From Armatimonadota bacterium (GTDB lineage: Bacteria > Armatimonadota > Fimbriimonadia > Fimbriimonadales > Fimbriimonadaceae), in contig JAIUNY010000022.1 of NCBI GenBank assembly GCA_020161505.1, forward strand, positions 1 through 52,056: a stretch of DNA of 52,056 bases, given 5' to 3'. A program made the translations under genes and the position numbers. How positions within the stretch are numbered: position 1 is the first letter of the stretch; every line of letters begins with the position of its first letter. The notes beneath the pieces were generated by a model. It was not told where the DNA came from, did not search any database, and was given only the letters and a program-made list of their open reading frames with translations. This document shows, one piece after another, positions 39,349-46,649 of the stretch.

Positions 39349-39377
39349 TTGCCGTGAGGGATGGCGTTCTAACTATT
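39349..39377 (+). promoter_or_regulatory. Possible promoter of the htpX leader
   Basis: TTGCCG (39349-39354) and ACTATT (39372-39377) with 17-nt spacing would start transcription just before the aptamer. The 39199-39348 stretch upstream shows nothing recognisable. Confidence 0.4.
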
Positions 39378-39388
39378 CGTATCCCTTT

Positions 39389-39479
39389 GCGAGAGGGGAG
39401 TAGCCGCCCGAACGGGTGGGGATGATCGTCAAGACGCTGAGGTTGCTCAGCCGGTCACCCCGAACGGCGAGACCTCCGC
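39389..39479 (+). promoter_or_regulatory. yybP-ykoY (Mn2+-sensing) riboswitch aptamer
   Basis: The two most conserved elements of this class are present: GGGGAGTAGC (39395-39404) next to the first P1 strand, and GCGAGACC (39467-39474) before the second. P1 pairs GCG(A)GAGG (39389-39396) with CCTCCGC (39473-39479). Between them are a CCCG-AA-CGGG hairpin and a strong GCTGAG-GTTG-CTCAGC hairpin (39436-39451). It sits 80 bp upstream of htpX. Confidence 0.88.
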
Positions 39480-39527
39480 GTGGTTTGCTCCGGGTTCTTC
39501 CAGGGAGCAGCGACGCGGAGGTTTTTT
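39473..39527 (+). terminator. Riboswitch expression platform: alternative terminator
   Basis: CCTCCGCGT (39473-39481), which contains the 3' strand of P1, pairs with ACGCGGAGG (39513-39521) and is followed by T6 (39522-39527). An inner TGCTCC/GGAGCA pair (39486/39509) adds stability. P1 and this terminator are mutually exclusive, predicting that ligand binding turns expression ON. Confidence 0.9.
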
Positions 39528-39558
39528 GTTGCCTCTCGCCGGGATGCAAAGACGGTCT

Positions 39559-40410
39559 ATGAACACAGTCAAAGTAGCGGTTTTGATGGCGGCCCTCACG
39601 GGATTGTTTGTCCTGATGGGGCAGGCGGTTGGTGGGAACGGAGGCATGATCATTGCCTTCGTGCTCGCCGTCGTGATGAACTTCGGTGCCTATTGGTTCA
39701 GCGACAAGCTGGCCCTCAAGGCGACTCGGGCGCGGGCGGTCTCGGAAGCGGAAGCTCCGGAGCTCCATCAGATGGTGGAGATCCTCGCGAAGCGCGCGAG
39801 CATCCCAAAGCCGGGCGTTTATGTGGTCGATGATCCGAGCCCGAATGCCGTTGCCACCGGTCGAAACCCGGCGAATGCAGCGGTTGCTGTGAATACAGGT
39901 CTGCTGAACATCTTGGATCGGCAAGAGGTTTATGGGGTTTTGGCTCACGAAGTTGCGCACATCAAGAATCGGGACACGCTCACGATGACGGTTGTCGCCA
40001 CGATCGCCGGTGCGATCACGATGATCGCTCAGTTCGCCCAGTTCGCTGCGATGTTCGGCGGACTCGGTCGCAATGAGGATGGCGAGGGGATGAACCCGAT
40101 TGGGCTCCTGGTCATGGCCTTGGTCGCTCCGTTCGCCGCGATGATCATGCAGCTTGCGGTTTCTCGGGCCAGGGAGTTCGAGGCGGATAAGCTGGGGGCG
40201 CAGCTCGCCGGGGACACCCATGGCCTGAGCAATGCTCTGCTGAAACTGGAGCGGGGAACCATGGCGATCCCGACGCACACGACGCCGAATCGGGCGCCGC
40301 TGTATATCGTCAATCCTCTGAAGGGGATGGACGGGCTCTCTCGGCTCTTCATGACCCACCCTCCGATCCAGGAGCGGGTGTCCAAGCTGAGCCAGCTCAA
40401 GGTTTCGTAA
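39559..40410 (+). CDS. htpX: Membrane zinc metalloprotease HtpX
   Basis: 283-aa M48B protease that degrades misfolded inner-membrane proteins with its active site facing the cytoplasm. Two N-terminal membrane helices (about 4-20 and 28-46) precede HEVAH at residues 130-134, the zinc/catalytic motif; two more hydrophobic segments follow, then EFEAD supplies the third ligand. ATG 39559 gives the standard MNTVKVAVLM start; ATG 39526 lies in the terminator run. Expression should depend on the riboswitch upstream. It is monocistronic, ending in the terminator at 40428. Confidence 0.96.
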   Translation: MNTVKVAVLMAALTGLFVLMGQAVGGNGGMIIAFVLAVVMNFGAYWFSDKLALKATRARAVSEAEAPELHQMVEILAKRASIPKPGVYVVDDPSPNAVATGRNPANAAVAVNTGLLNILDRQEVYGVLAHEVAHIKNRDTLTMTVVATIAGAITMIAQFAQFAAMFGGLGRNEDGEGMNPIGLLVMALVAPFAAMIMQLAVSRAREFEADKLGAQLAGDTHGLSNALLKLERGTMAIPTHTTPNRAPLYIVNPLKGMDGLSRLFMTHPPIQERVSKLSQLKVS

Positions 40411-40427
40411 GCGTTGCTCCTCACGCG

Positions 40428-40468
40428 AGTGCGGCAGGAATCTCGGGATTCCTGTCGCACTTTGGCTT
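40428..40468 (+). terminator. Rho-independent terminator of htpX
   Basis: AGTGCGGCAGGAATC (40428-40442) pairs with GATTCCTGTCGCACT (40447-40461), 15 bp with one G-U, loop TCGG, followed by TTTGGCTTT. Confidence 0.9.
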
Positions 40469-40495
40469 TGTCCGGCGTGGATTCTGGCGTAGATT
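40467..40495 (+). promoter_or_regulatory. Promoter of 40504 gene
   Basis: TTTGTC (40467-40472) and TAGATT (40490-40495) have 17-nt spacing; the -10 ends 8 nt before ATG 40504. The -35 box abuts the htpX terminator. Confidence 0.5.
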
Positions 40496-41873: not shown

Positions 41874-44306
41874 TCACGAACGACTCAAGGCGAGCAGCGG
41901 GGACTTGTCCTTGACCCGTTCGTAGGCTGCTTCGCTGCGCCTGTCGCCCTTCTCGATGGCCCTGAGATACCACTTGGCTGCTTCCTTGAGATCCTTTTGC
42001 ACGTACCAGCCTTGCTCATAGTAGTAGCCGACATTGAAGATTCCATCAACATCGCCCATCTCGGCGGCCTTGCTCATCAGTTCGAACGCGGTCTTGAGGC
42101 TGGCCTCTCCGCCAAGCCCTTGTTGATAGAGCAGAGCCTGGGAGACGTGTGCCGGGGCACTGCCCGCCTTCATGGCTTTCTCATACCACTCCCGAGCCAG
42201 GATGTAGTTTTGGGAGACTCCCCAACCTTGCTCGTAGTAAAAACCGATTGAGTACATCGCATAGTGGCTTCCCAACTCGGCTGACTTCTGGAACCACCGC
42301 AGAGCTTGGTCAACGTTCTTTTCGACACCCTTGCCTTTCTGCAGGCAGAGCGCGAGGTAGTTCATCGCTCGCATGTTGCCGCGCTCGGCTCCCATTTCAT
42401 ACATCCGCACGGCCTGGACGAGATCGATCTCGCCGCCGAGACCGTTCTCGTAGAGCCAACCGAGGCTGGCCATGGCGGCGGGTTCTCCGGCGTCTGCCCC
42501 TCTCAGATGCCAGGCCCGCGCGAGGGCGAGATCTTTCGTGGTTCCGATCCCGTTTTCACACGAGAATCCCACGAGGTACATGGCGAATCCATCCCCGAAC
42601 TTGGCGGCTTCCAGATACCATTGAAGCCCGGTCGCAGGGTTCTTCTCGACGCCCTGACCGTTCACATAGAGGTGTCCGACGTTCACCATGCCCCGAGTGT
42701 TATTACTCTTGGCAGCCTCGAGGAAGTAGGTCATCGCCTTGGCGTAGTCTTGCTTGATGAGCGTGCCGTCGCGGAAGAGCAAGCCGATTTGGTTGTAGCA
42801 CTCCGATGATCCACCCTCGGCTCCCTTGACATACCAGTCAATCGCCTTCTGAGGATCTTTCAGCACGCCGAGCCCGAGTTCGTACATCAATCCCACGTTG
42901 AGGCAGGCGTCAAAGTGACCCATTTCGACTGCCTTGACGTACCACTTCATGGCTTCCTCGTAGTTCCGAGGAACGCCGTATCCCATCTCGTGAACCCAGC
43001 CCATGTTGCTGGTGGCGTGAACGCTGCCGAGGTCTGCGGCCTTGCGGAGCCACTTGACGGCTTCCTCCCGGTTGATCGGCCGACCGAGTCCGTCCATGTA
43101 AAGGATCGCGATCCGGTTCATGGCCCGCGAGTTCCCGAGAGCGGCAGACTTCTCGAACCACTCCATCGCGGCGGTGTAGTTGCGCTCGACACCGGTGCCG
43201 TTCATGAACATGAATCCGAGGCCATTCATGGCTTCGGCGTTGCCTTGTCGAGCCGCGAGATCGAAGAGAGTGATCGCGCGGCGGAAGTCGCTGTTTTTGT
43301 AGGCGGCGTAGGCATCTTCTACCCACGTTTGCACTTCGCGGTCACTGATTCCGGCTCGGGTAGCGCTGGAGGTTCCGAAAGCAAGCGGGAGCATCGAGAC
43401 AACTTGACTCGTGATGATCGGAGTCATCGGCTTGTCGGGGAAGCGCTGGTTCCATTGCGCGATCTGCTCGCCGAGGGACTCGTTGACCAAGGAGGGCACG
43501 ATGGAGCCATCGCCGCGGGCAGAATTGGCATTGCCGAGAGCTTTGATGAAGGCTTGGGTGTAGACGCCACCGCCATTGCCTGTGCCGTAAGCGTTTGGGT
43601 CTTCGTAGCTCTTTTCGCCGTCGCTACAACTGTACATGGCGGTCCAGGAGACCTGACCGAACTTGCTGGCTCGGACGACGCGACCGAGCTTTTCGAGGGC
43701 ATCTCCGCCGCCTGGCGTCGTGCCGCTCTTTTCAACTTTGGGCTCGTCGCGGCACGCATCGACAATGATGATTCGCTTCCGGGCGGCCTGGTTTCCAAAG
43801 GCTTTCGCGAGGTCATCGAAGGCGAGGAGGGTGCCGGGATCAAGTTCCCAGCCATTGGCAGTTTGTCGGAACTCGGTGCTCGCCGGGGCAAGATAGTGCA
43901 CCCCGTTGATCTGCGCCCCGTGGCCGGAGAAATAGAAAAGGATCGAATCCACAGATTCGGTTTGGAGCCCGGCGATGGTCGCGAGGATTCCGTCTCGGGT
44001 GGCCTCGGTCATGGTCGCGCCAGGTGGGCTGACGATGCGCTTCACATCCCATCCCATCTGATACAGAGATTGCTCCACCCGCTCCGCATCTTTGTGGGCG
44101 AATCTGAGGGAGCCCATTCCCGCTCGATCTGCCTTCGAGGGAGTGAGGTATCCGCTGACGCCCACGACGATGGCGATCTTCTTTGCGGGTCGCTCCAGTT
44201 CGGGCTTCTCGTTATTGGGCGCCTGGGCGAAAGAGGCCACGGCGGTCACCGCCAGGAGAAGTGGCATCGCGGCGCGATTGAAAAGGGCAGATGAGAGGCG
44301 CGACAT
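41874..44306 (-). CDS. Secreted caspase-like (C14) protein with 12 Sel1 repeats
   Basis: 810 aa. A signal peptide (PLLLAVTAVASFAQA) is followed by a caspase-fold domain at residues 42-300 with the dyad His129 (FYFSGHGAQ) and Cys185 (IIIVDACRDEP). From about residue 356, twelve 36-residue Sel1-like repeats run almost to the end (for example AMNGLGFMFMNGTGVERNY and AMYSIGFYYEQGWGVSQNY). Sel1 repeats form alpha-alpha solenoids for protein binding, so this looks like a protease or pseudo-protease with a large recognition arm in the periplasm or outside. Substrates are unknown. The start at 44306 gives the best signal; ATG 44267 is an alternative. Confidence 0.92.
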   Translation of the reverse strand: MSRLSSALFNRAAMPLLLAVTAVASFAQAPNNEKPELERPAKKIAIVVGVSGYLTPSKADRAGMGSLRFAHKDAERVEQSLYQMGWDVKRIVSPPGATMTEATRDGILATIAGLQTESVDSILFYFSGHGAQINGVHYLAPASTEFRQTANGWELDPGTLLAFDDLAKAFGNQAARKRIIIVDACRDEPKVEKSGTTPGGGDALEKLGRVVRASKFGQVSWTAMYSCSDGEKSYEDPNAYGTGNGGGVYTQAFIKALGNANSARGDGSIVPSLVNESLGEQIAQWNQRFPDKPMTPIITSQVVSMLPLAFGTSSATRAGISDREVQTWVEDAYAAYKNSDFRRAITLFDLAARQGNAEAMNGLGFMFMNGTGVERNYTAAMEWFEKSAALGNSRAMNRIAILYMDGLGRPINREEAVKWLRKAADLGSVHATSNMGWVHEMGYGVPRNYEEAMKWYVKAVEMGHFDACLNVGLMYELGLGVLKDPQKAIDWYVKGAEGGSSECYNQIGLLFRDGTLIKQDYAKAMTYFLEAAKSNNTRGMVNVGHLYVNGQGVEKNPATGLQWYLEAAKFGDGFAMYLVGFSCENGIGTTKDLALARAWHLRGADAGEPAAMASLGWLYENGLGGEIDLVQAVRMYEMGAERGNMRAMNYLALCLQKGKGVEKNVDQALRWFQKSAELGSHYAMYSIGFYYEQGWGVSQNYILAREWYEKAMKAGSAPAHVSQALLYQQGLGGEASLKTAFELMSKAAEMGDVDGIFNVGYYYEQGWYVQKDLKEAAKWYLRAIEKGDRRSEAAYERVKDKSPLLALSRS

Positions 44307-44512
44307 AACGATCTAGCTTTCGGAATACAAAACGCTTAGGTGTCTTCCCAAGATACAGGACGCCCTGGGACTGTTTTCCGTTGCTCTGAGCGAACGGGTT
44401 GACGGATTTCCTATGTACGAAGGCGTATGGATTCCATAAAAATTCTCGGCTCCTTGACTCAAACCCGGTATGGCTACCTGCGTCGGCAGCTGAAGGAAAT
44501 GGAAAGGCCCTC

Positions 44513-44531
44513 CCGATACTCACTGTATCGG
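44513..44531. promoter_or_regulatory. Inverted repeat in the leader of the first pilin gene
   Basis: CCGATAC (44513-44519) and GTATCGG (44525-44531) flank TCACT; an outer CTCCC (44510-44514) and GGGAG (44541-44545) can also pair. It may be an operator or mRNA structure. A TTGACG (44399-44404) could be part of the promoter. The rest of 44307-44569 shows nothing clear. Confidence 0.45.
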
Positions 44532-44569
44532 CTCTCGTTTGGGAGTCACCAAAGGAAGAACTCAGGAAC

Positions 44570-44959
44570 ATGGGCAAGAACAACAAGAATCGAGGCTTTA
44601 CCCTCGTCGAAATCATGATCGTCGTCCTGATCATCGGCATCCTGCTGGCGATCGCGGTCCCCAACTTCGTGAAGGCACGGCAAAACAGCCGCGTCCAAAC
44701 GGTTGTTGGCAACCTCAAGCAAATTGAATCGGCCAAGGAGCAGTGGGCGATGGATACTGGCGCCGCAAGTTCGGCGACCCCGACTTCCGCTGATCTCGTT
44801 CCGAACTATATCAAGAAGTGGCCCGTCGGCCCGGTGGGAGCCGCCACCGACTACGTGGCTAACAACATGTCCACTCTGCCGACCTTTAAGGCACAGAATG
44901 CGGATGCCTTCCAAGGCGCGGCAACCAAGGCTGCTGCCATCACGGCCGCTGGTCTGTAA
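44570..44959 (+). CDS. Type IV pilin-like protein (pilin 1)
   Basis: 129 aa. The prepilin leader MGKNNKNRG ends in G before FTLVEIMIVV, with Glu at +5 and a classic hydrophobic N-terminal helix; a compact C-terminal domain lacks Cys pairs. ATG 44570 has AGGA 4 nt upstream; the longer upstream frame adds a leader far too long for prepilin peptidase. It is followed by a very strong terminator, so it is transcribed alone, as a major pilin would be. It is clearly paralogous to the next two genes (AKEQWAM and VPNYIKKWPVGPVG blocks). Confidence 0.9.
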   Translation: MGKNNKNRGFTLVEIMIVVLIIGILLAIAVPNFVKARQNSRVQTVVGNLKQIESAKEQWAMDTGAASSATPTSADLVPNYIKKWPVGPVGAATDYVANNMSTLPTFKAQNADAFQGAATKAAAITAAGL

Positions 44960-44981
44960 GGATCGTCCACACGACCGAATC

Positions 44982-45019
44982 ACGGGGCGTCACCAGGAGG
45001 TGACGCCCCGTCTTCTTTT
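44982..45019 (+). terminator. Strong Rho-independent terminator after pilin 1
   Basis: ACGGGGCGTCACC (44982-44994) and GGTGACGCCCCGT (44999-45011) pair perfectly over 13 bp with loop AGGA, then CTTCTTTT. Confidence 0.95.
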
Positions 45020-45188
45020 GCCAGAGGATATCGACGGACGCCGAGTTCTTTGAGCATAAATCGGACAAGCCTGGTCGCCGTGTCCCCGTTCAGCCATTCG
45101 CCCAAGAATCCGTCCTTGTGAAGCCCCCGGGGCCATCCGACACCATGCATACCGTTCCTCAGCCGGAGCGGGAGAATGGTGATTGAGG

Positions 45189-45593
45189 ATGAAAAGATTC
45201 CCCCGGTGCGCGACGTACCCGACGAGAGCTTTCACGCTTGTCGAGATCATGATTGTTGTTCTGATCATCGGCAGCCTGCTGGCGATCGCGGTTCCCAACT
45301 TTGTGAAGGCTCGGCAGAGCAGCCGTGTCCAGACGGTGGTCGCGAACCTCAAACAGCTTGCGGCAGCCAAAGAACAGTGGGCCATGGAGATGCGAGCGAG
45401 TAGCACCGCGACTCCGACTCAAGCGCAGCTCGTGCCGAACTTTCTGAAGAAGTGGCCCGAGGGCCCGGTTGGCGTGCCCACGGACTACGTGGCTCGGCGG
45501 ATGGATCTCCCTCCAACCTTCAAGGGCCGGACTGCGGATCAGTTTCAGAATCCCGCCACGCGAGCGGCTTCGATCACCGCCGCCGGACTCTAG
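45189..45593 (+). CDS. Type IV pilin-like protein (pilin 2)
   Basis: 134 aa. The prepilin signal is PTRA before FTLVEIMIVV; Ala rather than Gly precedes the cleavage site, which occurs in RAFTL-type pilins. The mature part is close to pilin 1 (NFVKARQSSRVQTVV, AKEQWAM, KKWPEGPVG, AASITAAGL end), a recent tandem duplication. Start at ATG 45189; a ribosome-binding site is weak (GAGG directly before). The preceding 45020-45188 gap shows nothing clear apart from this. Confidence 0.88.
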   Translation: MKRFPRCATYPTRAFTLVEIMIVVLIIGSLLAIAVPNFVKARQSSRVQTVVANLKQLAAAKEQWAMEMRASSTATPTQAQLVPNFLKKWPEGPVGVPTDYVARRMDLPPTFKGRTADQFQNPATRAASITAAGL

Positions 45594-45690
45594 CCAGGCC
45601 CAGACTTTCAACGACCCCCAAGCAACACCTCAAGGGGAGAGAGCACCCTCTGAGATCGAGCGAAGTCATCCGAAGATAAGAGGTGGATCC

Positions 45691-46059
45691 ATGCGGCGCG
45701 GCTACACCTTGCTCGAAGTGATGATGGTGGTTCTGATGATGGGCCTCCTGATGAGCATCATTGCGCCGAATCTGGTGAAGCGGCGATCCGACTCGCGACT
45801 AACCACGGTTCGCGCCAATCTGGAGACACTCCAAGACGCCAAGGTGCGTTGGGCGGTGGAGACGAATGCGAGCCCAACCGCCGTGCCTACAAGCGCAAAT
45901 CTGGTGCCGGACTACTTAAGGGAGTGGCCCGCCGGGCCGATTCCTGGCACCTATTCGGCAGGGGCGGTCAACGCTTTGCCGTCATTCGAAAACATCACGC
46001 TGGACCGCTGGAAGGATCGAAGCCAGCGCGCGACGATTCTCGGTCAGCTGCCCTTCTAG
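45691..46059 (+). CDS. Type IV pilin-like protein (pilin 3, divergent)
   Basis: 122 aa. The leader MRRG is followed by YTLLEVMMVVLMMG, with Tyr at +1 and Glu at +5. Residues 40-85 keep the pilin 1/2 pattern (AKVRWAVETNASPTAVPTSA, then EWPAGPI), so it is a third, older paralog. GAGGTGG lies 4 nt before ATG 45691. Compared with pilins 1 and 2 it has lost the ITAAGL end. It may be a minor subunit. Confidence 0.85.
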   Translation: MRRGYTLLEVMMVVLMMGLLMSIIAPNLVKRRSDSRLTTVRANLETLQDAKVRWAVETNASPTAVPTSANLVPDYLREWPAGPIPGTYSAGAVNALPSFENITLDRWKDRSQRATILGQLPF

Positions 46060-46163
46060 TTAAGGTTTCCGACCGAAACCTGGCAATTCACTGGATCAGG
46101 CGCCTCTTCCCGAAGTGGAAGACGCATTTAGTGGCGCGACCTTGCCTGCGCCATGTGAATGAT

Positions 46164-46649
46164 ATGATGCAGCGTCGAAGGAGTCAGAAGGGGCACACAC
46201 TGCTGGAAGCCATGATGTCGGCTTTCCTGGCCCTGATCTGCGCGCTCATCTTCACCGCCACAATCCCGGTGGCGAATCTCACGCGGGGCAAGGCGGAAAA
46301 CACCAACTCTGCCGTGAGCTTGGCCCAAAAGACGATTGAGACTCTGCGGGGTCAAGGGTATCCCAACACGACGCCGACGCAGCTTCTCTCGAACGGATTG
46401 ATTCAGAGTACGACTCCGGTGAACTTGCACAGCATTGGTGCCGGAACGGCCGGCGAAACGGGGTTCGAGTTTACAGAGACCGATACGGGTGTGGTCGATA
46501 GCCCGAGAACCGTGCTGCCCAACGGGCGCGGGTTCATCCGCACCGAGTCCCTTCAGATGGGGCTCCGCCGGGTCACGGTGATCGTGATTTGGCAAGAGCG
46601 CAGCGAAACCAAGCTCGTCCGACTTTCCACCCTGGTGGCCAATCTTTAG
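46164..46649 (+). CDS. Minor pseudopilin, PilV-like (module A)
   Basis: 161 aa. The prepilin signal MMQRRRSQKG is followed by HTLLEAMMSAFLALICALIF; Glu +5 is kept but His at +1 is unusual, since +1 is normally Phe. The globular part resembles PilV-type minor pilins and is a paralog of the gene at 49756 (ATIPVAN, RGKAENTN, TPVN, and LSTLVANL end). The start at ATG 46164 is chosen for leader length; no Shine-Dalgarno is obvious. It is the first gene of a run continuing to 49738. Confidence 0.83.
   Translation: MMQRRRSQKGHTLLEAMMSAFLALICALIFTATIPVANLTRGKAENTNSAVSLAQKTIETLRGQGYPNTTPTQLLSNGLIQSTTPVNLHSIGAGTAGETGFEFTETDTGVVDSPRTVLPNGRGFIRTESLQMGLRRVTVIVIWQERSETKLVRLSTLVANL

Follow-up and report, generated by a model that had tools for sequence, protein, structure and literature searches.

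Known targets of Mn2+ riboswitches are mostly transporters, and crystal structures of the yybP-ykoY class show a four-way junction of the helices P1-P4. In the L. lactis/X. oryzae type, a terminator competes for the 3' strand of P1. Binding of Mn2+ stabilises P1 and read-through rises; in X. oryzae, for example, Mn2+ stabilises P1.1 and the terminator is thereby prevented (PMC6754395; PMC11087558). A three-way form is reported for S. pneumoniae mgtA (PMC9495176). Membrane proteolysis matters in Mn2+ stress in B. subtilis, where YqgP acts with FtsH under Mn2+ excess. In the same organism, HtpX and FtsH co-purified with the TerC proteins MeeF and MeeY, and loss of MeeF/MeeY made FtsH essential (PMC10550928). 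HtpX, a protease of the membrane, is connected with envelope stress. E. coli htpX and B. subtilis ykrL belong to one orthologous family of membrane stress proteases; the former is controlled by the CpxRA two-component system, the latter is not under CssRS, and no riboswitch was described (PMC3514339).

The locus compared here lies in an Armatimonadota genome. The window, which is the whole stretch of DNA analysed (52,056 nucleotides), holds a yybP-ykoY (Mn2+) aptamer at 39389-39479, directly 5' of htpX. Reading of the sequence places GGGGAGTAGC at 39395-39404 and GCGAGACC at 39467-39474, within the following features:

39385..39484, plus strand: whole aptamer, match of covariance model R1 (47.1 bits, E 1.3e-11)
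39389..39396, plus strand: P1 (switch helix) 5' strand, GCG-A-GAGG with A39392 bulged (fold of 39388-39480; pairing kept in relatives with compensatory changes)
39395..39404, plus strand: L1 5' motif GGGGAGUAGC, invariant in 24 relatives and identical in htpX- and TerC-linked copies
39406..39417, plus strand: P2 hairpin GCCC-GAAC-GGGU (fold)
39418..39461, plus strand: P3 arm with CCGG and the L3 metal-site motif UCGUCAAGACG at 39426-39436 (fold; relatives and E. coli alx share the L3 motif)
39467..39474, plus strand: L1 3' motif GCGAGACC, conserved in relatives
39473..39479, plus strand: P1 3' strand CCUCCGC, which doubles as the terminator 5' arm (folds)
39473..39527, plus strand: intrinsic terminator, stem 39473-39521 and U6 39522-39527 (-33.6 kcal/mol, z -5.7; equivalent overlap in 46 of 53 htpX-linked loci)
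39559..40410, plus strand: htpX, a zinc metalloprotease of the membrane (family M48) with HEVAH motif (PRK01345 and PF01435 matches)
40427..40462, plus strand: strong hairpin 3' of htpX followed by a weak U-tract, perhaps the end of the transcript (fold; 40405-40475 has z -3.5)

The window thus resembles L. lactis yoaB, X. oryzae yebN and E. coli mntP/alx (RF00080) in its L1 (GGGGAGUAGC with GCRAGACC), its L3 (UCGUCA..ACG, with CCGG), the use of P1 as switch helix and, as in the L. lactis/X. oryzae type, a terminator that vies with P1 for its 3' strand. The L1 and L3 elements stand in the right order and spacing. In the energy-only fold of 39388-39480, 39389-39391 and 39393-39396 paired with 39473-39479, leaving A39392 bulged, and P1 was joined by the P2 hairpin and a P3 arm bearing UCGUCAAGACG and CCGG. 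Unlike the known members with their four-way junction, the fold of the window has P2 and P3 without P4, a predicted three-way junction. The absence of P4 is no bar to class membership because of the three-way form described for S. pneumoniae mgtA. By folding, P2 without P4 appeared in 72 of 75 aptamers of Armatimonadota (set L035-L129), and P4 without P2 in 18 of 19 htpX-linked aptamers outside the phylum (set L130-L163). Two three-way forms of an RNA described as a four-way junction would, if the folds hold, be a new point.

The initial annotation had read conserved elements, a P1 stem and a T6 terminator whose 5' arm is the 3' strand of P1, and had proposed an ON-type switch; sequence and folds agreed with this reading. 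Since 39473-39479 is common to both, P1 and the terminator are mutually exclusive. In folds of the full leader, the terminator form (-80.2 kcal/mol) was favoured by about 18 kcal/mol over the forced-P1 form (-61.7 kcal/mol), a predicted gap that fits a switch relying on P1 while the RNA is being made, not at equilibrium. P1 and terminator were counted as overlapping when the CC of the P1 3' strand began a stem that had 6 or more pairs and ran into a T-tract. Such an overlap was found in 46 of 53 htpX-linked loci versus 4.8% in shuffled downstream sequence, which supports the proposed ON-type terminator logic. By the same simple rule, 6 of 32 Armatimonadota htpX loci (31 fetched and the window) had no overlapping terminator. 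Furthermore, P1 changed on both sides among the loci (GAAGG/CCTTC, AAAGG/CCTTT, CAAGG/CCTTG, AGAGG/CCTCT, GGAGG/CCTCC) while the overlap was kept; therefore one strand has kept its fit to two partners, as a P1/terminator switch predicts. A simple promoter scan recognised no sigma-70-like promoter. On this evidence, the htpX leader is very probably a yybP-ykoY riboswitch that responds to Mn2+ and acts as an ON switch at the level of transcription. L1 and L3 would dock around Mn2+ during transcription and stabilise P1, which would hold 39473-39479, block the terminator at 39473-39527 and let RNA polymerase read into htpX. With little Mn2+, the terminator 3' arm would invade P1 and transcription would end before htpX. 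As free cytosolic Mn2+ rises, more HtpX would thus be made.

Class membership was examined with two covariance models. The Rfam RF00080 search that had been proposed gave 11.3 bits (E 0.74) on the window against a gathering cutoff of 45, and the same search of the whole genome found nothing. However, RF00080 (Rfam 15) also gave the validated mntP of E. coli 41.6 bits, short of its cutoff, did not list the validated E. coli alx even at E up to 1, and lifted not one of 20 related loci bearing the complete motif over the threshold. Because these positive controls (L239:3462-3558 and L240:4370-4506 for E. coli) were under-scored or missed, the low score was not read as exclusion, and RF00080 was dropped as the deciding test. 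We therefore searched 291 Armatimonadota genomes with the pattern GGGGAGTAG-N46-76-GCRAGACC, which matched in 73 of them while the reversed pattern matched in few, and built our own model, R1, from 24 of the motif matches with the window left out. The R1 structure was given by hand because RNAalifold on a MAFFT alignment misaligned the variable arms and returned only 11 pairs. R1 scored the window at 47.1 bits (E 8e-10 over the whole genome), its sole copy there, the next best place reaching 15 bits; within 17 kb of E. coli sequence it also picked up alx at E 0.0004 and mntP at E 0.006. This blind match, together with the recurrent linkage to htpX, supports the Mn2+ (yybP-ykoY) class that had been assigned from the sequence. 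RF00080 seems too insensitive for surveys: the current model misses most members in these phyla, and surveys of the regulon based on it are therefore incomplete.

The downstream gene had been called htpX, and the HtpX and PF01435 profiles confirmed this for 39559-40410. The HtpX profiles gave 342 bits (NCBIfam PRK01345, own cutoff 422) and 337 bits, both below curated subgroup cutoffs, and Pfam PF01435 gave 133 bits. With the HEXXH zinc site read as HEVAH in the translation, the predicted product is HtpX, of peptidase family M48B. No second htpX was found in the genome at E 1e-25. The terminator of its own that had been ascribed to the gene stood in part: a strong hairpin lies at 40427-40462, but its U-tract is poor and the terminator scan did not pick it up, so that it can be called terminator-like only. 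Further along the window, 41874-44306 (minus strand) encodes an 810-aa protein that, read from sequence, looks like a caspase-type peptidase with many Sel1-like repeats. In translations of 44399-46649 (plus strand), four adjoining genes have type IV pilin-like leaders (GFTLVEIMIVVLIIG and variants).

Whether related htpX orthologs share the element had been posed as a check on the reading. R1 matched in 92 of the 291 Armatimonadota genomes, and in 95 riboswitch loci fetched from the phylum the first genes were classed by tblastn against representatives. htpX came first in 31, spread over several families, whereas about 3,000 genes per genome leave a chance expectation far below one. TerC, or a zinc-ribbon gene plus TerC, came first in 46, a CaCA exchanger in 5, a TolC-like gene in 3 and a P-type ATPase in 2 (with 1 more after a zinc-ribbon gene); other classes were few. 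In 7 loci, htpX was followed by the zinc-ribbon gene that elsewhere stands 5' of TerC, and in 3 by a P-type ATPase. Seven genomes had two riboswitches, one at TerC and one at htpX. The TerC-linked (MeeY/YkoY-type) riboswitches of the phylum, sometimes in the same genome, have the aptamer, loops and expression platform of the window; unlike it, they precede TerC, often after a zinc-ribbon gene. Within the genus of the window, the riboswitch is 5' of htpX in G151, G152, G157 and the window itself, and 5' of zinc-ribbon and TerC genes in G153 and G154. In some relatives, among them G154 and G155 of this very genus, htpX is present but lacks the riboswitch, so riboswitch control is not essential to HtpX function. 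No hidden riboswitch was found 5' of 40 unlinked htpX genes of the phylum, even at E 1. Other genes also lie 3' of the same riboswitch, namely a ribosome hibernation factor (S30AE) in L116 and L117, and TolC-like gene pairs, possibly with an ABC-type partner, in L077, L079 and L082.

Linkage to htpX was also found beyond the phylum. We scanned 84,980 species genomes for the aptamer motifs plus a HEXXH codon pattern at the right spacing; the counts are lower bounds because this spacing was fixed. All 34 loci obtained had R1 matches and an HtpX reading frame just downstream, 46-73% identical to HtpX of the window. Twenty-one were outside Armatimonadota: many in Nitrospirota or Thermodesulfovibrionia, several in Bacillota (the isolate Propionispora sp. 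2/2-37 among them), and the rest in single genome assemblies bearing the labels Sumerlaeota and Actinomycetota. Such titles are not always reliable; L137, titled Methanoregulaceae archaeon, probably has a wrong title or binning. The pairing of riboswitch and htpX thus recurs in at least two other phyla and, rather than being a one-off as it had first appeared, is found in many genera. This recurrence supports htpX as a target of the putative switch. Among 92 HtpX proteins placed in a tree, 15 Nitrospirota-type ones formed one group with full support. The linked proteins of the whole tree fell into several separate groups mixed with unlinked ones, which gives no support to a single origin of the linkage.

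What HtpX would do under such control is less direct. We infer that the window copy binds Mn2+, that htpX rises with it and that the purpose is clean-up: most likely, HtpX clears membrane or translocating proteins that have gone wrong at high Mn2+. It would remove damaged or wrongly metalated proteins of this kind beside or instead of TerC-type Mn2+ export. The initial annotation had suggested that membrane-protein quality control is induced under Mn2+ overload, and the htpX operons with P-type ATPase or zinc-ribbon genes, together with the co-purification of HtpX with TerC proteins, make this more plausible. The genome has one htpX, two TerC genes without riboswitch and one cation-diffusion protein, and no MntP exporter or Nramp importer was found in it. 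The idea that the htpX switch makes up for missing Mn2+ efflux meets the absence of MntP and Nramp but also the presence of two TerC and one cation-diffusion protein. A narrower task is possible, though we consider it rather unlikely: the switch would be read correctly, but HtpX would destroy particular cation transporters, such as Mn2+-permeable Mg2+ importers or Mn2+ importers, at high Mn2+. There is a precedent in B. subtilis, where the rhomboid YqgP with FtsH removes MgtE, and the cleavage, at high Mn2+ and low Mg2+, protects the cells (PMC7231995). With neither Nramp nor MntP found, control of entry through other channels could matter as well. However, no HtpX substrate is known here, and HtpX is usually described as a general quality-control protease of membranes (PMC3514339).

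The identity of the ligand bears on the same question. Sherlock and Breaker (PMC7266159) expect yybP variants of altered specificity behind genes that do not fit Mn2+. The aptamer could accordingly be a variant for another divalent metal (e.g., Zn2+, Fe2+ or Cd2+), with htpX answering that metal, and zinc enzymes (HtpX, beta-carbonic anhydrase) as well as zinc-ribbon proteins are indeed among the riboswitch targets. An altered L3 does occur in some copies: the CaCA-linked L119, L120, L121, L124 and L126 lack the usual UCGUCA..ACG motif and are candidates for changed metal specificity, and a changed L3 also occurs in L146 and L153 of Bacillota. The window, however, has the usual L3, its L1 and L3 letters fit the class consensus, and htpX-linked and TerC-linked copies of the phylum have the same letters in L1, in L3 and in the 3' motif. 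Since the loops match, there is no sign of a changed ligand, and we consider another metal improbable. The case for Mn2+ as the presumed ligand comes from the class itself and from binding loops that have not changed.

Slightly less probable still is that extra HtpX under Mn2+ merely offsets its own poisoning, with Mn2+ displacing Zn2+ and the cell making more of its zinc-dependent proteins (HtpX, beta-carbonic anhydrase, zinc-ribbon) in response. The same riboswitch does stand 5' of many zinc-ribbon genes and of beta-carbonic anhydrase, in L040 of the genus of the window and in L130:5541-5655 on a Nitrospirota-like contig, where the next genes are a zinc-ribbon gene and a P-type ATPase. Against this, none of the TerC, P-type ATPase and CaCA targets is a zinc enzyme, and by the Irving-Williams order Zn2+ is seldom displaced by Mn2+. 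That the element is a decayed or non-switching remnant of a TerC riboswitch, by chance 5' of htpX, is very unlikely: the window scores 47 bits under R1, lower than most relatives (up to 84), and P1 has a bulged A, but no key motif is damaged, compensatory changes preserve the P1/terminator overlap and the linkage to htpX extends over several phyla.

The RNA class is known, while the protease as a recurrent target and, by folding, the aptamers with only P2 (Armatimonadota) or only P4 (others) appear to be new. The known yybP-ykoY members control a transporter, unlike the window, and the Rfam model is blind to the latter. The rhomboid YqgP senses metal through a domain of the protein, without riboswitch, whereas HtpX is an M48 metalloprotease. 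In full-text searches of 5.39 million open-access papers, a coverage without the two 2015 founding papers, we found no paper tying htpX to a yybP-ykoY riboswitch. Whether there is a cross-phylum stress regulon of the Mn2+ riboswitch, with HtpX membrane proteolysis as a core output beside TerC/P-type ATPase export, we judge evenly balanced. If there is, one RNA sensor would turn on metal export or protein metalation together with clearance of failed membrane or translocating proteins, which would be directly testable with leaders from many bacteria. The linkage to htpX would be the gene-regulation counterpart to the published physical link of TerC with HtpX and FtsH. Our results suggest that Mn2+ excess and the clean-up of damaged membrane proteins are linked; tied repeatedly to a membrane protease, the manganese response would come to include protein quality control.
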